Shown here piece after piece: positions 1,600 through 10,791 of a DNA stretch of 11,429 bases. The translations under genes were made by a program, and so were the position numbers. The notes beneath the pieces were generated by a model. The model did no database searches. It saw only the letters and a list, made by a program, of their open reading frames with translations, and was not told where the DNA came from. Origin of the DNA: Capsulimonas sp. GTDB taxonomy: Bacteria; Armatimonadota; Armatimonadia; Armatimonadales; Capsulimonadaceae. Numbering within the stretch: position 1 is the stretch's first letter; each line of letters starts with the position of its first letter. The stretch covers positions 1 to 11,429 of the forward strand of contig JAOQAA010000023.1 of the NCBI GenBank assembly GCA_025963815.1. The letters run 5' to 3'.

Positions 1600-1842
1600 A
1601 GAATTGACGATTCTGCGTCATCAGCTTCCGTCACTGGCAACACGAATGCGGGAGCAGACTTATTCACCATCTCACTGGTAGCCGTGGACTTTTTGCGGCG
1701 GTGGCGGCAGTAAAATTGATGCTCTAACCCCTTGCTTCAGTATATATTTTGAGGGTATAACACTGTCGTGGGTGAGCACCGATACCTGACGGCATTGATT
1801 TGTAGTCGGATGTGCGCATCTGGAAGAATTAACATCATGACG
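1600..1842. other. Intergenic stretch before the tRNA-like sequence
   Basis: No gene is supported here; short open frames on either strand have no ribosome-binding site and a random composition. The only promoter-like match pointing toward the tRNA-like sequence is TTGCTT at 1732-1737, an 18-base spacer and TATAAC at 1756-1761. It is a weak match. If the tRNA-like sequence is an attachment-site remnant, the match is probably accidental. Confidence 0.35.
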
Positions 1843-1915
1843 TGGCGTTTGGCTCAATCCGAGCGCTGCCCTGTCAAGGCAGAGGCCGCGGGTTCAAGTC
1901 CCGTCATCCCCGCCA
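1843..1915 (+). tRNA. tRNA-Asp (GTC)-like sequence with defective 5' half, probable att remnant
   Basis: The 3' part is a textbook tRNA-Asp. The anticodon stem CTGCC/GGCAG (1866-1870 with 1878-1882) encloses the loop CTGTCAA, with anticodon GTC. The T arm GCGGG-TTCAAGT-CCCGT follows (1888-1904), then the acceptor strand CATCCCC, discriminator G and encoded CCA ending at 1915. The 5' part does not match. The strand that should read GGGGATG is TGGCGTT (1843-1849), leaving about three mismatches. The D arm (GCTC 1852-1855 with GAGC 1861-1864) has a loop of only five bases. A functional product is unlikely. The bases from about 1859 to 1915 look like the 3' end of a tRNA-Asp gene joined to unrelated or decayed sequence, as at the far end of an element integrated into a tRNA gene. 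Confidence 0.6.
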
Positions 1916-1927
1916 CTTAAGAATTAG

Positions 1928-1974
1928 CCGCAGAATCGACGCAATGAAGAAATTGCCCGATTCTGCGGTTTTTT
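1928..1974 (+). terminator. Strong intrinsic terminator after the tRNA-like sequence
   Basis: An 11-bp perfect stem (CCGCAGAATCG at 1928-1938 with CGATTCTGCGG at 1958-1968) is extended inside a small bulge by GCAAT/ATTGC (1941-1945 with 1952-1956). It is followed by six T at 1969-1974 and another T-rich run. It starts 13 bases after the tRNA CCA, the normal place for a tRNA terminator, so it was probably the native terminator of the original tRNA-Asp gene. Confidence 0.9.
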
Positions 1975-1986
1975 CGTTTTTATACT

Positions 1987-2018
1987 GGTTCCGCTGTGCG
2001 ACGGTTCCACTATGGAAC
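1987..2018. promoter_or_regulatory. Possible operator: 16-bp-phased direct repeat plus inverted repeat
   Basis: GGTTCCGCTGTG at 1987-1998 recurs as GGTTCCACTATG at 2003-2014 (10 of 12 bases identical), sixteen bases apart. The second copy overlaps an inverted repeat GTTCC-actat-GGAAC (2004-2018). The site is about 56 bases upstream of the first gene of the metal-efflux locus, a suitable place for a regulator-binding site. I cannot identify the regulator, and no regulator gene is in the window. Confidence 0.3.
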
Positions 2019-2073
2019 TATTTTCTTCGTTCCTTTGTAAACTAAGGAGAAGCGGGGTACGATAAACGCAGAG

Positions 2074-2589
2074 ATGAAACGGCGACTTTACAATCTGGTG
2101 ATGCTGGTCCTCCTCCTGACGATGTTCGTACAGGCGGTTGTTCCTGCATGCGCTCTCGCGGACGTCAGCGTTCGTTGTGTGTGGGCATCCCCGTCGTCGA
2201 GTCCGTGTATGCACGCCGTTATTCCTATTTCTGGAGCGACGCCGTCACAAATTCGCTGTTCGCAAATGTCCTGCTGCCGCTCCAAAGCGGCGCTGATGCG
2301 CGCTTGCGGGATGGCGATGTCACATATGGGCTCGTCTCCGCAGTCGAACCTGCATGCCGCGACGTGTTTGATCACGGTGAAGTCGCTTCGAAACTCTCAG
2401 GGCGCGTTCACTCCCACCACTCAGCGATGGATGCTGGACACGGCGCCCGCAAATGCGCCGCCTGCTCCTGTTGTTTCTGTTTTCTCGCCGATTGAAATCC
2501 CTGTGGACGCCCCTCGTCCGCAGTCTGTCCCTTATTCACCATGCCCATCGATTCGTTCGCATGGGTTACGTGCGCCTCCAATTTCCTAA
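2074..2589 (+). CDS. Secreted Cys/Met/His-rich protein of a metal-efflux locus
   Basis: This is a 171-residue protein with a clear signal peptide: positively charged MKRRLYN, a hydrophobic core of Leu/Val/Met, and likely cleavage near residue 29 after ALA. The mature part has several cysteines. A dense cluster lies at residues 62-85 (Cys62, Cys67, Cys68, Cys78, then GMAMSHM with Met80, Met82, His84, Met85), the ligand set typical of periplasmic copper or other soft-metal proteins. The second half is Pro-rich and probably unstructured, ending in SHGLRAPPIS. It precedes an efflux operon and resembles in layout the poorly conserved secreted proteins often found beside copper-resistance genes (CopL-like), but this is inference, not a family match. 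AAGGAG at 2044-2049 lies 24 bases before the ATG, so initiation is not ideal. No better in-frame start is visible. Confidence 0.7.
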   Translation: MKRRLYNLVMLVLLLTMFVQAVVPACALADVSVRCVWASPSSSPCMHAVIPISGATPSQIRCSQMSCCRSKAALMRACGMAMSHMGSSPQSNLHAATCLITVKSLRNSQGAFTPTTQRWMLDTAPANAPPAPVVSVFSPIEIPVDAPRPQSVPYSPCPSIRSHGLRAPPIS

Positions 2590-2722
2590 CCCTTCGATCC
2601 AAGTCGCTTTGGCGTAACGCCCTTTGCGGCCGATCAAATCTACCCGACTAAGATATCCACCCCTGTCTTGATGTGGGAGGCTAGCTCCTGCCTCAAGCCA
2701 TAGCCCACGCCACACGGAAGTC

Positions 2723-2743
2723 CCTTTTGTGACTTTCACAAGG
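2723..2743 (+). promoter_or_regulatory. Small hairpin covering the Shine-Dalgarno of the next gene
   Basis: CCTTTTGTGA (2723-2732) can pair with TCACAAGG (2736-2743) with one bulge. The 3' arm includes the first bases of the AAGGAG Shine-Dalgarno (2740-2745), nine bases before the ATG at 2755. Such pairing could lower translation until the leader is unfolded. The loop is tight, so the effect may be small. Confidence 0.3.
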
Positions 2744-2754
2744 AGAAAAACAAC

Positions 2755-3006
2755 ATGAAGACCGCGATTGCTCTCGCCGTTCTGGCGATCAGCCTGACGC
2801 CACTATCCGCAAACGCCGCCAAGCCCATGGCGCACGCCACGGCCATGCCGACGACCTATGTGTGCTCCAAGTGCCATATGAAGTATGACGCCGCCACGGC
2901 GAAGAAGGATCATTTCAAAGATCCGATGGACGGCGGGAAACTCGTTCCTGTTGTGGTGTCGAAGAAAGCCGTGCCCGCGAAGCCAATGGGCGGCATGAAG
3001 ATGTAG
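2755..3006 (+). CDS. Small secreted protein with one CxxC...DPMDGGKL putative metal-binding domain
   Basis: This is an 83-residue protein with a signal peptide (MKTAIALAVLAISL, cleavage near ANA at residues 19-21) and a strong AAGGAG nine bases before the ATG. After a short Met/His-containing linker comes one 32-residue module (residues 35-66). It begins YVCSKCHM (Cys37, Cys40, His41, Met42) and ends DPMDGGKLVPV. The tail is Lys/Met-rich and ends GGMKM. The same module occurs twice in the adaptor protein encoded next. The opening half resembles the heavy-metal-binding domain of metal RND adaptors (YxCPMHP...CPxCGM), but the second CxxC is replaced by DPMDGG. By inference it is a periplasmic metal-binding protein or chaperone that feeds the efflux pump. 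CxxCH could suggest haem, but the equivalent site in one paralogous module is CxxCG, which argues against it. Confidence 0.75.
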   Translation: MKTAIALAVLAISLTPLSANAAKPMAHATAMPTTYVCSKCHMKYDAATAKKDHFKDPMDGGKLVPVVVSKKAVPAKPMGGMKM

Positions 3007-3074
3007 CCTGCGGGCAGACAAATGTCGCCTTCGGGCGGCAAGGCGCCGGGAACGCAAGCTTGGCGCCCTCCTGG

Positions 3075-3108
3075 CCTCGGCGGTTCTTAGGGATGAGAAC
3101 CGCCGAGG
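3075..3108 (+). terminator. 13-bp perfect stem-loop without T-tract between small gene and pump genes
   Basis: CCTCGGCGGTTCT (3075-3087) pairs perfectly with AGAACCGCCGAGG (3096-3108) across an eight-base loop. The sequence after it (GTTGAACC) has no T-run, so this is not a full intrinsic terminator. It may partly stop transcription or protect the 3' end of the upstream message. A second, tiny but stable hairpin CGCC-TTCG-GGCG lies at 3026-3037, just after the stop codon of the small gene. Confidence 0.5.
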
Positions 3109-3168
3109 GTTGAACCAACTATCACCAAGACGCTTTTTTGAGATCGGCTTTCTGGATCGGATACTTCT

Positions 3169-4968
3169 ATGCGCGGACTCTGGAAAAATACGCTGAGCCT
3201 CCTGGCTCTTGTCATCGTGATTGCGATCACTCTTGTGGCTGTGCGGAGCTTCCATAAGCCTGGACAGCTCGATGTGATTTCCGCCCAGGCGATGGATATG
3301 AGCGCCATGCGTCCGCCCACCGGCGCCGCTCCGGTTTCCCTCGCGTCCGTGCGGCGCGGATCACTGGACGATACGGTGACTTACACGGGATCGGTCCTGC
3401 CCTTCAACGAGCAGGAGATATCACCGCGTATCACGGGGGCGCTCGTCTCGCTGCCCGTTTATCCTGGGGACCGCGTGCGTGCGGGGCAATTGGTCGCGCA
3501 GCTTGACAGCGCTGAACTTTCCGCCAAAACGCAGCAGGCGATCCAGGCGGCGAACGGGGCGCGGATCAACGCACAGGTTGCGCATCTGACGCACCATCTG
3601 CACCACCGCGCCGCCGTCGCCCAGGCGACCGCCCAATACTCCGCGGCGGCGCAGGGCGTGTCCGACGCTCAGGCCGAGGCGCAGGCCGGAGCCGACGCCA
3701 TTGCCGACGCGCAGGCGGGCGTACAAAGCGCTCAGGCCAGCGCGGAATATTGGAAGACGGAGATTGCGCGCGAGAAGCAGCTCGCCGACGCCGGAGCGGT
3801 CTCGCGGCAGGAATATCAGAGTGAACAGGCGCAGGCGCAGGCGGCGTTCGCGGCGCTCACCCAATCTCAGGCGAAGGTCAATCAGGCAAAGGCAATGGCG
3901 CGGGCGGCGCAGGCAAAGGTGCTTGTGGCGAAACGGCAGGTGGACGCGGCGCAGGCCTCCGAGGACATGGCGCAGGCCGATCTCGTCGTCGCGGAGGCGC
4001 AGGCGGCCCAGGCGCAGGCCGGCGCCTCGCAGACCCAGGCGGCGGTTCGCGAAGCCGCCGTGGTTCAGGGCTACACACGTATCACGGCTCCGTTCAGCGG
4101 CGTCGTGACGTCGCGCCCCGTCGCGCCGGGAACGCTGGTGCAGCCAGGGACGGTGATTTTGAAGGTCGCCGATATCGGCCGTGTGCGTGTACAGGCCAAT
4201 ATCGCCGCATCCGATCTGACGGGGATCCATGTGGGAACCGCCGTGGAGATCGCCATGCAGAACGGCGGTGATCCGATCCCAGCGAACGTTTCCTCGGTGT
4301 TTCCCTCCGCGAATACGAGCACGCGAACCGCTGTGATCGAGGCCGTTGTGGCAAACCCCGCGCGTCAATTGCAGCCGGGCGCGTTTGTGACGATGCGCAT
4401 CACGAAGCGGACAGGGGCGGCCGAACTGCTGGTTCCCGCATCGTCCATCGTCTCTCAGGGCGGCCAGTCTTACGTCTGGATCGCCAAAGGCGCGGGCGCG
4501 TCCAAGAAAACAGAGTACGAGTGCGCCATCTGTCATATGTATTATTCGGCGGAGCAGGCCGCGAAATACCACTATATAGATCCCATGGACGGCGGCAAGC
4601 TTACGCCGATCCAATCCTCCAATACGCCGACGTCCAATGGCGGAGCGACCGCCCACAAGGTCATCGTTCAAATCGGCGCGTCGGATGGGGTTTCCTCGGA
4701 AGTCACTTCCGACGAACTCACGTCAACGGATAAAGTGATCGATCATGGAATGGCGGGTCTCACGGAAGGCGCGCGAATGGTAGTGACCGAGTGGGCGGAG
4801 AATGGACCGAAATCGCTGCCTGACGCCGCTTCCGCCAACGCGGGCCTCACCGTGTATCGCTGCGAGAAATGCGGCATGACTTACTCCGAGGCGGACGCAA
4901 AGAAGAATAACTTCATCGATCCCATGGACGGCGGCAAGCTGACGCCCGTGAAGGGGAGCGCCCAATGA
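3169..4968 (+). CDS. RND efflux membrane-fusion (adaptor) protein with two embedded metal-binding modules
   Basis: This 599-residue periplasmic adaptor of an RND pump links the inner-membrane permease to the outer-membrane channel. It has an N-terminal membrane anchor (about residues 8-26) and a first lipoyl half at about 75-115 (SPRITGALVSLPVYPGDRV). A very long Ala/Gln-rich alpha-hairpin follows (about 120-298), then the second lipoyl half (YTRITAPFSGVVTSRPVAPG, from residue 302) and beta-barrel segments to about 425 (PASSIVSQGG). Two 32-residue modules are unusual: 450-481 (Cys452, Cys455, His456, Met457, DPMDGGKL) inserted in the membrane-proximal region, and 563-594 (Cys565, Cys568, DPMDGGKL) at the C-terminus. 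A His cluster, HLTHHLHH (139-146), sits near the start of the hairpin. The family usually has about 350-450 residues, so the extra length is the hairpin plus the modules. No strong Shine-Dalgarno is visible. The stop overlaps the permease start by four bases. Confidence 0.9.
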   Translation: MRGLWKNTLSLLALVIVIAITLVAVRSFHKPGQLDVISAQAMDMSAMRPPTGAAPVSLASVRRGSLDDTVTYTGSVLPFNEQEISPRITGALVSLPVYPGDRVRAGQLVAQLDSAELSAKTQQAIQAANGARINAQVAHLTHHLHHRAAVAQATAQYSAAAQGVSDAQAEAQAGADAIADAQAGVQSAQASAEYWKTEIAREKQLADAGAVSRQEYQSEQAQAQAAFAALTQSQAKVNQAKAMARAAQAKVLVAKRQVDAAQASEDMAQADLVVAEAQAAQAQAGASQTQAAVREAAVVQGYTRITAPFSGVVTSRPVAPGTLVQPGTVILKVADIGRVRVQANIAASDLTGIHVGTAVEIAMQNGGDPIPANVSSVFPSANTSTRTAVIEAVVANPARQLQPGAFVTMRITKRTGAAELLVPASSIVSQGGQSYVWIAKGAGASKKTEYECAICHMYYSAEQAAKYHYIDPMDGGKLTPIQSSNTPTSNGGATAHKVIVQIGASDGVSSEVTSDELTSTDKVIDHGMAGLTEGARMVVTEWAENGPKSLPDAASANAGLTVYRCEKCGMTYSEADAKKNNFIDPMDGGKLTPVKGSAQ

Positions 4969-7900
4969 GGATCGTGAAGAAAGCAAGGTCTGGCGATCCG
5001 AAGGGCGGCGGCTTTAACGTCTCGGCGTGGAGCATCCAGCATCCATGGGTCGTGGTCTCATTCTATGTGGCGGTCGTGGCGCTGGCTCTGGTGGCGATCT
5101 TTGGCGGCGTAATGCCTCGCCGTATGATGCCCTATGTCGAGAGCCCGATGGTCGGGATCGTCACCATGATGCCGGGGCTTTCGGCGCAGGAGATGGAAAC
5201 GTATCTCTCCAAGCCGATCGAAGAACGCATGACCGACATTCGCGGCGCGCGCTATATCCGGTCCACGTCGCAAGATGGTCTCAGCATCGTTTCTCTGGAA
5301 TTCCCCTATGGGACGAACATGCAGAAGGCGGTCACGGATGTACAGTCGCTGATGAATGCGGTTCAGGCGGATCTGCCGCAGACGGGCGCCAATCTTAAGC
5401 CAAGCTGGGTGCTGCCGATCGATCCGCTGAACATCCCCATTTTGTCGGTGAGCGTGACGGGCGACGCCGACAAGGGCTGGACGCCGATGGCGCTTCGGCA
5501 ATTCGCCGAAAATGAAGGCGTTCGGTCGATCAAGCAGGTGGGGGATGTGCAGTCCGTTGAGATCTACGGCGGGCAAAAGCGCCAGTTGCGTGTCGAAATC
5601 AATCGCGACAAGCTCGCTGCCTACGGCTACTCCATCATGGACGTGCGCGACGCCATCGACAAAAACAGCGTGGCGAAGCCTGCGGGCGTGATTACGGCGG
5701 GGGGCGGCGAGAGTATTATTCGCGTGGCCGATCTCGCGCAGAGCGCGGGCGCAGTGGCGCAGTACCCGCTTGGCTCCAAGAACGGTCAGGTCGTGTATCT
5801 GCGGGATGTCGCGAGTGTGAAGGACGACATCCGCGAGCAGCGCAGCGGATATCACTTCGTCGACGGACAGCGTAAAACCATCGAAGGGCTCGGCAATGAA
5901 TCCGTGGAGATGGCCGTCATCCAAAACCCTGCATCCGGGTCGCCGCCCGTCGTGCAGGCGGTCCAGAAGCAACTCGATCAGCTTGCGGAGGATCACCCCG
6001 GTCTGCATTTTCGTGTGGCCTATGATAACTCGCACTTCGTCAATATCCTGTTCCAAAACACTGCTGAAGAACTGGCTGTCGCCATTCTCCTCTGCGGTCT
6101 CGCCGTAATGTTCTTTCTCGGCAATTGGCGCGGAACGATGATCTCCGTGATCACCATTCCCGTGAGCATGGCGATGGCGATCCTGCTCATGGTCCCTTTT
6201 GGGTTTAGCCTGAACTCTTCCACGCTGATCGGGCTCTTGATTTCCATCGGACGATTGGTGGACGATTCGGTCATCGATATTCACGCCGTCGAACGGCATC
6301 TGGCGATGGGAAAGAAGCCGATCCAGGCGACGGTGGACGGCATCACCGAAGTACGCGTCGCGGTCGCGGCGTCCACGATCATGCTGGTGCTGGCCCTGCT
6401 GCCGCTTGTCTTCTGCGGCGGCATCACGCAGCTGATGTTTGTGGGATTGGCCTATCCGATCATCTTTGGATTGATCGCCTCGTTTTTAGTCTCGCTGACG
6501 CTGACCGCCGTACTGTCGTCACGACTGCTCAGACACGAGCATGTTTCCCAGCGGCGCGGCGCCTTTCAGCGGCATGTGCTTGCGCCTGTCCAGCGCTGGC
6601 TGGGGCGCAAGGAAAGCCGCTATGAGCGCTTGGTGCGGACGCTGCTGCGAAACAAGTTCTCGGTGATCGCCGCGGCGCTCTGCACGATTGTCTTGGGCTT
6701 CGGCTTCTACAACTTTATCGGCTCGGAAATGATGCCGCTTGCCGATGTCGGTCAGGCGTACGGCGTGCTCGAGATGCAGCCGGGAGCGAGCTATGCGCAG
6801 ACCCAGTCCGCGACGGCGGCCTTAGAGAAGATCATTTTGAAGCACCCTGAGATCCAAAAGGTTTCCACGGAGATCGGTGAGGAGCCGGGTGGAACGTATT
6901 TCACAGGTTACGCCATGAACCAGATCAACACCGCCACGATGATGATCACGCTGTCCGATAAGGACGAGCGCCATCACACGGTCTGGCAGGTGATTGACGA
7001 CGTGCAGAAAGAAGCCCTGCGCACGATCCCCAACATCCGACGACTTCAGATCAAGGAGATGGGCAGCGACGTCATGGCGTCCTCGGAGGCGCCCGTCACG
7101 GTGCTTGTCTCTGGGCAGGATCTGAATGTTCTCTCGAAGCTTGCCGGCCAGGTCGCGGACATCGCGCGTCAGACGCCTGGCGCCTCTCAGGTCTCGACCT
7201 CATGGGCCATGGAGAAGCCTTCGTATTTGCTGAACGTGGATGCGCGTCGCGCGGCGGAGGTCGGCCTCACGCCCGCCGATGTCGCGGATCAGGCGTATTA
7301 CGCCATGGGCGGCGCGCTGGCCGACGAGTTTTATCGACTGCCGAATGTTCGACAGGACACCATTAATATCCGCTATCAGGGTGATCAGCGTCGCTCCGTT
7401 TACGATCTTATGCAAATGCCGATCACGGGAAAAGACGGCGTTCAGGTTCCGCTCAAAACGCTGGCGACGGCGGCGCAGCAGCTTGCGCCGACGGTCATCG
7501 AGCACGATGGTCTGCGTCGCACCGTGTCCGTACTGGCATACTATCGCAAGGGCGGGCCGCCGTCGATGGACCTCGCGATGGCGATCATCGGCAAGGCGTC
7601 GGCAAAGCTCAACTTTCCGCCTGGATACTCCATGGAGATGCGCGGCGACATGACGCAGATGATGGATAGCTTCGCACGGCTGCTGCGCGGCTTGGAGATC
7701 GCCGTGCTGCTGATCTTTCTCGTACTGGTCGCCCAGTTCGGCGGACTGCTCTCGCCTTTGCAAATGGTGCTGTCCATTCCGCTGGAGCTGTCGGGGGTGT
7801 TCTTCGGGCTGTGGGTGGCGCATCAGGCGTTCTCCAGCGTCTCGATCATGGCGATCATCGTGCTTACGGGCATGGACATCACCACGGCCATTCTGATGAT

Positions 7901-8249
7901 CGATCAGATCATGCGCCGGCGGCGCGAGCGGTCCGGTCTGCCGCGCGATGAAGCCATCGCTTTGGCGTGCCGCGACCGATTGCGTCCCATCTTGATGACC
8001 TCGCTGATCACGATCATCACGATGCTCCCCGTAGCACTGGCGCCGCGCACGGGGATGGACGCCTACCAGCCGCTCGGTACGGTGATTGTGGCCGGGCTGA
8101 CCGTGGGAACGCTGCTCTCTTTGCTCGTGATCCCAGTGATGCACGCCCTGGTCGACGATCTTGAGAAATGGGCGGCTCGAAAGCTTGGTGGACGTCAGGA
8201 CACCCGCCGCGATGAGACGAAATCGATTTCCGTCAGCGAAATAGGATAA
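4965..8249 (+). CDS. RND-superfamily efflux permease
   Basis: This 1094-residue inner-membrane pump subunit should use the proton gradient to drive periplasmic export. It has the RND duplicated layout. TM1 is at about 28-48 (after SAWSIQHPW), followed by a first periplasmic porter region (about 50-355). A block of TM2-6 around 360-545 follows, then TM7 near 588-608 (NKFSVIAAAL), a second periplasmic region and TM8-12 from about 915 to the end. TM4 carries the Asp pair, Asp433-Asp434, in GRLVDDSVIDIHAVERH, matching the AcrB/HAE proton-relay pair. It differs from AcrB by an Arg at 430 and extra Asp438 and His440. The TM10 Lys of AcrB is replaced in GMDITTAILMIDQ (969-981). It lacks the single-Asp signature of classical CusA-type (HME) pumps, so metal specificity is suggested by its neighbours rather than by its own motifs. 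Its start overlaps the adaptor stop, indicating coupled translation. Confidence 0.95.
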   Translation: MRIVKKARSGDPKGGGFNVSAWSIQHPWVVVSFYVAVVALALVAIFGGVMPRRMMPYVESPMVGIVTMMPGLSAQEMETYLSKPIEERMTDIRGARYIRSTSQDGLSIVSLEFPYGTNMQKAVTDVQSLMNAVQADLPQTGANLKPSWVLPIDPLNIPILSVSVTGDADKGWTPMALRQFAENEGVRSIKQVGDVQSVEIYGGQKRQLRVEINRDKLAAYGYSIMDVRDAIDKNSVAKPAGVITAGGGESIIRVADLAQSAGAVAQYPLGSKNGQVVYLRDVASVKDDIREQRSGYHFVDGQRKTIEGLGNESVEMAVIQNPASGSPPVVQAVQKQLDQLAEDHPGLHFRVAYDNSHFVNILFQNTAEELAVAILLCGLAVMFFLGNWRGTMISVITIPVSMAMAILLMVPFGFSLNSSTLIGLLISIGRLVDDSVIDIHAVERHLAMGKKPIQATVDGITEVRVAVAASTIMLVLALLPLVFCGGITQLMFVGLAYPIIFGLIASFLVSLTLTAVLSSRLLRHEHVSQRRGAFQRHVLAPVQRWLGRKESRYERLVRTLLRNKFSVIAAALCTIVLGFGFYNFIGSEMMPLADVGQAYGVLEMQPGASYAQTQSATAALEKIILKHPEIQKVSTEIGEEPGGTYFTGYAMNQINTATMMITLSDKDERHHTVWQVIDDVQKEALRTIPNIRRLQIKEMGSDVMASSEAPVTVLVSGQDLNVLSKLAGQVADIARQTPGASQVSTSWAMEKPSYLLNVDARRAAEVGLTPADVADQAYYAMGGALADEFYRLPNVRQDTINIRYQGDQRRSVYDLMQMPITGKDGVQVPLKTLATAAQQLAPTVIEHDGLRRTVSVLAYYRKGGPPSMDLAMAIIGKASAKLNFPPGYSMEMRGDMTQMMDSFARLLRGLEIAVLLIFLVLVAQFGGLLSPLQMVLSIPLELSGVFFGLWVAHQAFSSVSIMAIIVLTGMDITTAILMIDQIMRRRRERSGLPRDEAIALACRDRLRPILMTSLITIITMLPVALAPRTGMDAYQPLGTVIVAGLTVGTLLSLLVIPVMHALVDDLEKWAARKLGGRQDTRRDETKSISVSEIG

Positions 8250-8262
8250 GTCGAAGGTACAA

Positions 8263-9630
8263 ATGATGATTGACACTTCCCAGCGATACGTTGGCGCGGT
8301 TCTGATCGCAGCGCTTTTCCTCAGCGGATCCTCGGTGGCGAGCGCCGCAGAACCCGTCACGAGTGCAGCGTCACCCACAGGGGCGATCACGCTTTCCCTG
8401 GCTCAGGCGGTGGCGCTTGCGAATAAGAATAGCCCCGTCGCCTTGCGCCAGCGAGCCGACGCCGCCATTGCCGCCGCAGCGGCGCGGGGCGCGCAGGCGC
8501 AGCAGAGGCCCACGCTGTCCGCGACGGCCTACGGATCGCTTGGTGACTCCAGCAATATCTTGTCGTCTGCGCCTGGAGTGACGCCGCAGAATCTGTTCGC
8601 GGTTCCGCCGCGCGGCTTCGCCGATCAGAACCTGACGCTGATGGTTCCGATCTCGACGGGCGGTAAGATTCGCGGGACAATTGACTTCGCTCAGCGCCAA
8701 GCCGAAGCGGCTTCTTTGATGACCCAAGCGACCCGGCTGACCATCCAGCAGGGCGTGACGGAAGCCTATGCTGCGGTTTTGCTGTCCCATGAGCTGGTGT
8801 CCTCCGCGCAGGCGCGCCTGGATGCGGAGGAAGAACAGGTGCGTATCACGGGCGAGCGCGTGACGGCGGGGCGCTCCGCGCCGGTGGATCTGCTGCGTGA
8901 GCAGGCCGAGGAGGCCGATGCGAGCCAAATGCTGCTTTCGGGCCAAAACGACGAGCAAATCGCGAAGGTGAACCTCAAAGCAGCGCTCGCCATGCCGCAG
9001 GATCAGCAAATCGAACTGTCCGACACGCTCGACGCTTTACTGGCGGCGCGGCCCGATGCGCCGCTCAGTCAGCAGGAAGCGATCCACAAGGCGGAAGATC
9101 AGCGTCCTGAAATTGCGTCCGCACAGCGGCAAGTCGAAGCGGCGCAGGCGGCGGTGGCGTCGGCGAAAGGCGCATATTCGCCGCAAGTGTACGCCGTGGC
9201 GATGGGGGACGCGATGGCGATGCAGGGAGGGGGACGGACCGGCTACACCATCGGCTTATCCGCAAGCTTGCCATTGATAGACGGCGGGCAGCGGCGCTCT
9301 GACGTGGACGGGGCAAAGGCGCGTGTAGACGCCGCGCAGGCGGATGTTCTCAGCATTCGACAGCAAGTGGATAAGGAAGCGGCGTCCGCATGGCTGGCGC
9401 TCCAGACGGCCACGGCGCGTGTGGCGGCGACGGCGACTGGAGTGACCGCCGCGCAGCAGGGGTACGAGCTTGCGGCAATGCGTTACAACGCGGGGAAATC
9501 CGTGGCGGCGGAACGGCTCGATTCGCTTTCGGCGCTGACGCGCGCCAAAAGTACGGAAGCGCAGGCGAAGGCTGACCTGATCGTTGCGCGAGCACGACTA
9601 AACACCGCTCTGGGACATCTCGCGCCATAA
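8263..9630 (+). CDS. TolC-family outer-membrane efflux channel protein
   Basis: This 455-residue protein has a signal peptide (GAVLIAALFLSGSSVASA, cleavage near residues 27-29). Two outer-membrane efflux repeats follow. The first opens ITLSLAQAVALANKNSP (about residues 43-59), a standard TolC/OEP beginning. The second opens near PLSQQEAIHKAEDQRPEIASA (about residues 267-287). Long Ala/Gln-rich helices form the periplasmic tunnel, and short strands such as YTIGLSASLPLIDGGQRR belong to the barrel. Length is normal for the family. Translation most likely starts at the first of two adjacent ATGs, after a GAAGG about five bases upstream. The gene begins 13 bases after the permease stop, so the two are co-transcribed. 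It should form the exit duct for the adaptor and permease. I see no feature that sets substrate specificity. Confidence 0.93.
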   Translation: MMIDTSQRYVGAVLIAALFLSGSSVASAAEPVTSAASPTGAITLSLAQAVALANKNSPVALRQRADAAIAAAAARGAQAQQRPTLSATAYGSLGDSSNILSSAPGVTPQNLFAVPPRGFADQNLTLMVPISTGGKIRGTIDFAQRQAEAASLMTQATRLTIQQGVTEAYAAVLLSHELVSSAQARLDAEEEQVRITGERVTAGRSAPVDLLREQAEEADASQMLLSGQNDEQIAKVNLKAALAMPQDQQIELSDTLDALLAARPDAPLSQQEAIHKAEDQRPEIASAQRQVEAAQAAVASAKGAYSPQVYAVAMGDAMAMQGGGRTGYTIGLSASLPLIDGGQRRSDVDGAKARVDAAQADVLSIRQQVDKEAASAWLALQTATARVAATATGVTAAQQGYELAAMRYNAGKSVAAERLDSLSALTRAKSTEAQAKADLIVARARLNTALGHLAP

Positions 9631-9750: not shown

Positions 9751-10161
9751 TTATTCCGCGGATGCGGCGGCCATTTCGGCTTTAGTACGGCGTCGGCGGC
9801 GGGGCTTCGTCGTCTCTCCGCCTGCCAGCGAGGCAAAGAGCACGCCGTCCACTTCTTCAAAGTTCCCCTCGATTGCTTCCGTGAGCGGCGAAAGTCCAAA
9901 TCGCTCAAAGAGTTTCTTAGCGGAGACTTGATGCTGAATCCCGCGTCCACGGCGCGCGAGTTTAAACGCCGTCTTATCGCCGGCCTCGGCGGGAGCAATG
10001 CCGATGACGTTTTTGTCCGAGTCATATCCCAGCTTGACCTGCGTCACGCCATCTGAAATCTTAAAGATTCCCGATTCCGTAATGACGATACTTGACTTGA
10101 CAATCTTATAATCGAATTGCTGTCGCTGGGGTGTTTGAGGTGAGAACCATTCGAGGGCCAT
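9751..10161 (-). CDS. Conserved-looking hypothetical protein with Arg-rich tail, paralogue 1
   Basis: This is a 136-residue soluble protein opening MALEWFSPQ. A first half of probable beta-strands follows (IVKSSIVITESGIFKI, then VKLGYDSDKNVIGIAPAE at about 42-59). Next is a strongly conserved basic segment GDKTAFKLARRGRG (about 61-74) and a helix SAKKLFERFGL. The protein ends in a basic, Ala-rich tail starting KPRRRRRTK. By hand alignment about two thirds of the first 115 residues match the product of the next upstream minus-strand gene. I do not recognise an annotated family. The strand-then-helix order and basic tail suggest a nucleic-acid-associated role, but this is weak inference. AAGGA lies 10 bases before the ATG, and a TATAAT sits at 10210-10215. 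It converges on the efflux operon and shares its terminator. Confidence 0.8.
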   Translation of the reverse strand: MALEWFSPQTPQRQQFDYKIVKSSIVITESGIFKISDGVTQVKLGYDSDKNVIGIAPAEAGDKTAFKLARRGRGIQHQVSAKKLFERFGLSPLTEAIEGNFEEVDGVLFASLAGGETTKPRRRRRTKAEMAAASAE

Positions 10162-10392: not shown

Positions 10393-10791
10393 TTATTTGG
10401 TTTCTGAGGCGGCGTTTTTGCGTCGTCGTCGTCGGACCGGCGCGTCGCCGCCCATCAGAGAAGCGAAGATCACATCGCCCTCGACTTCGAAGTTACCGTC
10501 GATGGATTTCGCAAACGGAGCGATCATAAACCGCTCAAAAAGCTTCTTCGCCGTGATCTGATGCTGCGCTCCGCGTCCACGTCGCGCAAGTTTGAACGCG
10601 GTCTTATCGCCGGGTTCGGCGGGGGCGATCGCAATCACATTGCGCTCGGCATCATACCCGAGCTTGACGAGAGCTGCTCCGCTCGGGAGCTTATTGAGGC
10701 CCGATTCGGTGATGACAATCGTGGATTTTGCGATTTTATAATCAGATTTCTGCTGCTGAGGGGCTTGTGTTGTGAACCATTCGAGCGCCAT
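10393..10791 (-). CDS. Conserved-looking hypothetical protein with Arg-rich tail, paralogue 2
   Basis: This 132-residue protein has the same plan as its neighbour. It opens MALEWFTTQAPQ, followed by probable strands around STIVITESG and VKLGYDAERNVIAIAPAE, the nearly invariant basic stretch GDKTAFKLARRGRG, a helix AKKLFERF, and a short Arg-rich tail (VRRRRRKN). The stretch GDKTAFKLARRGRG is identical in both copies, while the tails and the region around residues 90-110 differ. This suggests that the core is under constraint and the tail needs only to be basic. AAGGA lies 11 bases before the ATG, and a near-consensus promoter is found upstream. The two genes are tandem in the same direction, with separate promoters. 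I do not recognise a family. A DNA- or RNA-binding role is a guess from composition. Confidence 0.8.
   Translation of the reverse strand: MALEWFTTQAPQQQKSDYKIAKSTIVITESGLNKLPSGAALVKLGYDAERNVIAIAPAEPGDKTAFKLARRGRGAQHQITAKKLFERFMIAPFAKSIDGNFEVEGDVIFASLMGGDAPVRRRRRKNAASETK

Follow-up and report, generated by a model that had tools for sequence, protein, structure and literature searches.

Described carriers and adaptors

In the Cus system of Escherichia coli, a secreted carrier protein, CusF, stands beside an efflux adaptor, CusB, which receives Cu(I) at the region of its heavy-metal-binding domain (HMBD), as described in passages of PMC6235853 and PMC6715271. With SilB, going by a portion of PMC4446572, a metal-chaperone domain is seen both as a stand-alone protein and fused to an adaptor, with the fused domain being CusF-like, present in one copy, and C-terminal. 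The locus considered here lies in an 11,429-nucleotide stretch of Capsulimonas sp. (GenBank assembly GCA_025963815.1, contig JAOQAA010000023.1), with 'the window' used to mean the whole of that stretch. Encoded there are a free, 83-residue protein and, next to it, an adaptor of the resistance-nodulation-division (RND) type, with a single kind of 32-residue module found once in the former and twice in the latter. That is, whereas CusF is of another fold (PF11604) and the CusB HMBD is without Cys, in the window the proposed carrier and the adaptor have one module in common.

What is observed directly at this locus is the modules, their conservation, their exchange, site for site, with the HMBD, and the order of the genes. 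Our interpretation, to which we give about even weight, is that the module is a Cys2/Asp2 ribbon-like stand-in for the HMBD, with the free protein being a likely periplasmic Cu(I)/Ag(I) carrier and the copies on the adaptor its acceptors.

One module in three copies

The features upon which this interpretation is based are as follows, with all positions being those of the window.

2740..2745, + strand: AAGGAG ahead of the free module gene, likely its ribosome-binding site (read from the sequence)
2755..3006, + strand: free module protein, 83 residues, the proposed carrier (open reading frame; homologues)
2755..2817, + strand: likely signal peptide, residues 1-21 of the 83-residue protein (by eye from the N-terminus)
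2857..2952, + strand: module in the free protein, residues 35-66 (profile match; AlphaFold2 (AF2) model)
2983..3003, + strand: Met-rich tail PMGGMKM, residues 77-83 of the free protein (a tail common across the free family)
3169..4968, + strand: RND periplasmic adaptor, 599 residues (PF16576, 2.9e-26; TIGR01730, 1.1e-45)
3292..3309, + strand: adaptor motif MDMSAM, residues 42-47 (pattern across adaptors)
4516..4611, + strand: adaptor module 1, residues 450-481 (profile match; HMBD here in other families)
4855..4950, + strand: adaptor module 2, residues 563-594, close to the C-terminus (profile match; C-terminal HMBD in four other adaptors)

An earlier note, made from the letters of this stretch, had described three copies of exactly 32 residues, at residues 35-66, 450-481, and 563-594 of their respective proteins, and the coordinates, lengths, and pattern all hold. 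Likewise borne out is its remark that the CPxCGM of the HMBD second knuckle is absent from the module, with D-P-M-[DE]-G-G standing there instead. Pairwise, the three modules are identical at 19, 21, and 19 of 32 residues, levels reached by none of 20,000 shuffles for any pair (best shuffle, 8-10). As DNA, the copies are identical at only 60-62 of 96 positions and are therefore not recent copies of one another, which rules out a recent internal duplication. A search profile built from 22 modules, the window's three included, finds within the window's own genome (4.77 Mb, 734 contigs, 69% complete, phylum Armatimonadota) exactly these three places, at E values of 2.2e-20 to 2.2e-21.

The 83-residue open reading frame is taken to be a real gene because of its AAGGAG box, because of an orthologue in Capsulimonas corticalis (CCAX7_30960) that adjoins an adaptor gene (CCAX7_30970), and because of 60 further homologous clusters, i.e., 61 at E <= 10 among 95 candidates with the window's own protein included. 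The AF2 model of this protein has strands at 34-37 and 43-45, a helix at 46-51, and a further strand at 62-66. The 599-residue protein is an RND periplasmic adaptor by both TIGR01730 (156 bits) and PF16576 (92.5 bits), each over its cut-off, and its AF2 model matches adaptor structures, with module 1 found between strands 433-440 and 493-505. As read from its sequence, the 32-residue unit is small and ribbon-like, with CxxC forming its first knuckle and an acidic DxxD its second, and is most likely a metal site.

Conservation of the module

In an alignment of the free proteins, Y35, C40, H41, M42, A49-K51, and D56-L63 are invariant, and C37 is nearly so, being replaced by Arg in P0052. Among 131 proteins filed as free, at least three of which are in fact adaptor pieces (P0183, P0201, P0237), 123 fit a loose form of the pattern, with the eight misfits consisting of five that have PMGH for PMDG and three in which P57 is replaced. 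Met-rich C-terminal tails are found on many free proteins, and the MKM form of tail also ends adaptors P0173 and P0178-P0181.

For the adaptors, a search with the C-terminal region gave 133 proteins at E <= 0.001 out of 1634 candidates, of which the best 120, the window's own and 119 others, were examined. By a strict pattern, 110 of these 120 have two modules and 10 have one, with the second module present in all 120. Among the ten, P0078, P0143, P0166, and P0173 have a first module that is changed at one pattern position; P0171, P0174, and P0178 have a first module that is altered to contain CPM[DE]; and P0179-P0181 have none. In P0171, P0174, and P0178 the CxxC is missing its first Cys or has it displaced, and a Cys is gained before PM[DE], as if a ligand had switched knuckles. 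The motif MDMSxM together with a following PP is found in 118 of the 120, the exceptions being P0116, a fragment, and P0133, where the sequence is MDMSQMGPP.

Considered as distinct 32-residue sequences (90 from free proteins, 102 from module 1, and 102 from module 2, with sequences dropped if misfitting a relaxed pattern that requires C, C, D, and P), A15 and M24 are at a frequency of 1.00 in free, module 1, and module 2 sequences alike. The residue at position 25 is D, save for an E in 25% of distinct module 1 sequences. Position 7 is H in free proteins (0.99) and in module 1 (0.96), and is G in module 2 (0.99). The resulting CxxCH, found in nearly all free proteins and in 96% of distinct module 1 sequences, could be viewed as a c-type haem site, making these proteins tiny cytochromes, and 57 of the 61 free proteins indeed match Cytochrome_C7 weakly (best E 0.0021), matches which by default are read as chance-level. 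CxxCH is not found in all copies, however, as CxxCG is seen in 99% of distinct module 2 sequences; the His is absent as well from relatives with CxxCK or CxxCE, and the module is but 32 residues long. A haem site is very improbable.

The earlier note had counted it against the idea should the module prove to be a known non-metal domain. Neither Pfam nor NCBIfam has a family that reaches its cut-off for the 83-residue protein or over the adaptor modules; matches of the 61 free proteins to Pfam are all weak among 25 of the 34 families listed; and the CusF profile, PF11604, has no match in the 83-residue protein at E <= 1. Searching PDB sequences with the module profile yields 20 weak matches, mostly to eukaryotic zinc fingers (best E 0.21). 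The same note had held that its idea would fail were the Cys and DPMDGG positions not conserved among homologues; as they are conserved, that objection does not apply.

That conservation bears also upon a reading of CxxC as a thiol switch or a disulfide, with the module sensing redox and gating the pump or else being structural only. The periplasm is oxidising, such that disulfide formation by a CxxC is possible, and the LID ribbons of E. coli-type adenylate kinases keep their fold without metal. DPMDGG is, however, as invariant as the Cys residues, and the exchange with the HMBD along with the Met tails point to metal instead. A thiol role is judged to be quite unlikely.

Range of the module

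Genomes of Armatimonadota compared are designated here by G-numbers, with f1 being Capsulimonadaceae, the window's family, and with G001 being C. corticalis, i.e., of the same genus (single contig, 7,645,051 bases, 95% completeness). A profile search of bacterial genomes with the module, as the earlier note had proposed, matched 11 of 291 Armatimonadota genomes, of which seven are the f1 genomes seen, three are of a sister family, f2 (G008, G014, G017), and one is of f4 (G020). The strict form of the module is found in six of the seven f1 genomes. A scan of 84,980 genomes, one per species, for [FY][KVI]DPMDGG gave 13 stretches, seven of which encode relatives, all from metagenome-assembled genomes (MAGs) of Armatimonadetes/Capsulimonadaceae. 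Among the genomes searched, the strict DPMDGG form is seen only in Capsulimonadaceae-type Armatimonadota. Two module proteins, P0077 and P0248, come under the NCBI label of a Janthinobacterium lividum MAG, perhaps a mislabelled Armatimonadota.

The weak profile matches are to small, Met-rich proteins with CxxC...[DC]PMGHK[LM], found in G004, G008, G014, G017, and G020. These very Met-rich, PMGHK-type proteins (L054-L058, from G004, G020, G014, G017, and G008) may be older relatives of the free module protein. Also weakly matched, as a cytosolic look-alike, is the C-terminal end of an LptB-like ABC ATPase in G004 (L065, C299:11860-11955; CxxCGEMYSPEQAAEAGFRHDQDGGRLIPV).

The strings 'DPMDGG' and 'DPMDGGKL' were not found in a text search of 5.39 million papers, nor, among the matches listed, is the module announced in titles or abstract openings on Capsulimonadaceae or on Armatimonad copper resistance and efflux. 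No printed record of the module was found in the literature searches made.

The module at the sites of the HMBD

Six homologous adaptors, from families f5, f9, and f13, carry canonical HMBDs (PF19335). At site 1, i.e., that of module 1, an HMBD is found in all six, with two in tandem in L019, and at the C-terminal site, i.e., site 2, in four of the six (L015-L018), with none in L019 or L020. Pfam reports two PF19335 stretches each in L015 and L019. When five of these six (L017 was left out) are aligned to the window's adaptor, their HMBDs at site 1 coincide with module 1. Y-x-C and [CD]-P-x-[CD]-G-x-x-L keep their register there, the HMBD having five fewer residues in the intervening stretch. 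At the C-terminal site the gaps are placed differently and there is no clean register.

PF19335 is matched in none of the seven f1 genomes versus in 21 of 61 genomes overall (20 over cut-off), and although the window's own genome is incomplete, G001, also without PF19335, is the single-contig assembly noted above. Compared with five pumps from HMBD-type genomes, the window's pump shows 54-61% identity. The module, as judged by sequence, sits in the HMBD's place, whether by divergence or by displacement. Like the HMBD of CusB-type adaptors, it is a short, Cys/Met ribbon-like unit, with CPxCGMxLxP standing against DPMDGGKLxP at site 1, but unlike that HMBD it has Asp for the second-knuckle Cys, has CxxC for CxMH, and is five residues longer.

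Pointers to the metal

The pump and the channel that follow the adaptor are these.

4965..8249, + strand: RND permease, 1094 residues (PF00873, 1.9e-208)
8263..9630, + strand: TolC-type outer-membrane channel, 455 residues (PF02321, 3.1e-51)

The HMBD of E. coli CusB consists of residues 44-71 (PF19335, 2.4e-12; FWYDPMYPNTRFDKPGKSPFMDMDLVPK). There the Cys residues are lost and M49, M64, and M66 are kept, these three being, in the passages of PMC6715271 and PMC6235853 on this point, Cu(I) ligands and CusF contacts (numbered M21, M36, and M38 in PMC6235853). In the window's pump, M604, M660, and M704 are invariant among nine pumps, and each is one to three columns from, respectively, CusA M573, M623, and M672. 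Seventeen Met residues are invariant among those nine pumps, these three included, and were 17 Met scattered evenly over 1094 residues then the chance that all three CusA sites would have a Met within three columns is about 0.001.

The Met-rich tails of free proteins and of some adaptors, and the MDMSxM motif near the N-terminus of the adaptors, are in keeping with such a metal. Gene surroundings in one relative may be pertinent as well. In G002 (L073, C167:7000-20000) the free gene comes after a YHS gene. Also before the free gene are those for a BlaI-type repressor, an M56 peptidase, a multicopper oxidase, and a YtkA/FixH protein, and after it are a HAD-hydrolase piece resembling part of a P-type ATPase and a Fur-family gene. 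This is a copper-type gene cluster which includes the free module gene. A YHS-like protein, by eye, adjoins the free gene in G006. On sequence grounds the metal would probably be Cu or Ag.

The main rival to Cu(I)/Ag(I) is a Cys2Asp2 site for Zn(II), or for Cd/Co, resembling the zinc ribbon of the adenylate kinase LID (PF05191), with the pump exporting a divalent metal or with the zinc being structural only. The LID has CxxCGxxY followed by CDxCGGxL or CDxD forms, a likeness accompanied by a weak match in fold; the LID differs in being part of an enzyme, and its second-knuckle Cys is kept in the six LIDs read. Adenylate kinase LIDs with a CDxD second knuckle are found in the window's own family (L089, G004; L092, G001). 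This rival is judged unlikely, and Zn or another divalent ion is judged an improbable identity for the metal.

Weighing the proposed relay

That the module binds metal, which metal this is, and that it is transferred are inferred, and under the Cu(I)/Ag(I) carrier interpretation events would proceed as follows. The free protein, that is, module plus Met tail, would acquire periplasmic Cu(I)/Ag(I), binding it through CxxC as helped by Met, and would then pass it to module 1 or module 2 of the adaptor, one of these being an insertion within its membrane-proximal part. The metal would next be taken on by the pump, with export occurring via pump and TolC channel. Such a carrier-to-adaptor relay is plausible, its precedents being CusF to CusB and SilB with its fused CusF-like domain. 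As the apparently swapped module is made also as a separate secreted protein, a like-to-like hand-over of metal is possible. Indeed, if the HMBD was exchanged in both free and fused form, then one and the same module would serve as carrier and as acceptor, i.e., a homotypic relay. That the whole family thus exchanged its HMBD, free and fused, for a previously undescribed Cys2/Asp2 ribbon, with ligand exchange between near-identical sites and with the Met tail and MDMSxM serving as way stations, is offered tentatively, as somewhat less than an even proposition.

A number of observations weigh against the Cu(I)/Ag(I) carrier interpretation. A CxxC/DxxD site would be a fitting one for Zn(II). In the window's pump there is no Met in any of the three CusA Met columns, AcrB has a Met in the CusA M573 column, and the pump is but 24% identical to CusA. 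The pump is below the TIGR00914 (CusA/CzcA) cut-off, at 367 versus 701 bits, scores higher with a multidrug model than with the CusA/CzcA model (both below cut-off), and has MdtB as its best PDB match. The free gene is directly 5' of the adaptor gene in G000, G001, and G003, but in G002, G005, and G006 the two are on different contigs. Of the six f1 module adaptors, modules 1 and 2 are both found in those of G000, G001, G002, and G006; that of G005 (L014 / L063) has instead two tandem modules at site 1, of which one reads HPMDGG, and lacks a C-terminal one, while that of G003 shows within its open frame module 1 only, with a TGA reported in frame. A tandem site 1 along with an empty C-terminus, the layout of G005, is seen also with canonical HMBDs in L019, the G029 adaptor.

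The link to the HMBD is subject to similar concern. PF19335 has no match in the window's 83-residue protein, in its adaptor, or in any of the seven f1 genomes, and is absent from P0061, P0174, P0178, and P0182 as well as from the families listed for the 61 free proteins (25 of 34). In the comparison with the PF19335 profile that the earlier note had suggested, hhalign aligned only ten columns and these out of register, pairing the module's CxxCHM with the HMBD second knuckle, CPxCGM, at a program-reported probability of 72%. By profile, then, the module is not an HMBD. The suggestion of a link to the HMBD stands in part, and extends further than the likeness of the module's opening: canonical HMBDs are at the same sites of homologous adaptors, with columns aligned at site 1, though profile membership is lacking.

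Given no HMBD match and a profile-profile alignment of ten columns, descent from the HMBD is one of two options. The other, which is compatible with the carrier interpretation, is that the module displaced the HMBD rather than diverging in place, with its source being the Met-rich free protein family. Free relatives with CxxC...[DC]PMGHK[LM] are present in G004, G008, G014, G017, and G020, genomes in which no adaptor with the module was seen; there is no in-register hhalign match; and a Met tail is common to the free family and some adaptors. The register kept at site 1 by Y-x-C and [CD]-P-x-[CD]-G-x-x-L, however, along with the in-between CPM[DE] forms of P0171, P0174, and P0178, speak for divergence. 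Displacement seems nearly, if not quite, an even call.

CusF itself was considered as the carrier and rejected. PF11604 is matched in three of 61 genomes, once over cut-off, that being in the window's own genome, where it lies in a long, Gly-rich frame (259 residues from the first start codon; 31.4 bits with neighbours), which is not CusF-sized. A CusF-like role for that frame is possible.

Neighbouring genes

Upstream of the free gene is one additional gene of the locus.

2074..2589, + strand: 171-residue Cys/Met-rich protein, probably secreted, ending HGLRAPPIS (homologue search; no Pfam family at E <= 1)

The five genes, all on the + strand, are then in the order of 171-residue protein, 83-residue module protein, RND adaptor, RND permease, and TolC-type channel. 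A scan of positions 1600-3300 gave one promoter-like site (1.1 expected) and five terminator-like sites (1.6 expected). Homologues of the 171-residue protein are found in six of 61 genomes, these being the six with a module adaptor, and in all six are upstream of that adaptor, next to it or, where the free gene intervenes, next to that gene. Copies are found in G001, G002, G003, G005, and G006, with two in G005, the second of which is upstream of the free module gene, and have a C-terminal HGLRAPP (six of seven copies aligned; L080 is outside of the pattern used). By eye, Cys-rich open reading frames ending LRAPPQTV (G049) and RAPPSSL (G039) are upstream of HMBD-type adaptors.

In G049, a 141-residue probable lipoprotein with two canonical HMBDs is encoded immediately 5' of an HMBD adaptor; the LRAPPQTV frame is further upstream, and all are on one strand. 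A free-plus-fused layout thus occurs also with the HMBD, as seen in this one genome. The likeness to the window extends to the pump and to the Cys-rich, LRAPP-ending frame, with the difference that the domain in G049 is a canonical HMBD.

Toward the far end of the window are two similar, nearby open reading frames (9751-10161 and 10393-10791, both - strand; 136 and 132 residues; MALEWF...DYKI.KS.IVITESG...), which are paralogue-like and for which no Pfam family is over cut-off.

Significance

Two unannotated, secreted families are pointed out here in a little-studied phylum. The pair consisting of a proposed 83-residue carrier and 32-residue acceptor is small and would be suited to the study of periplasmic metal hand-over. 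If the interpretation offered is true, then this is a natural domain swap, with the pump kept, which would show which features of a metal-docking domain are interchangeable.

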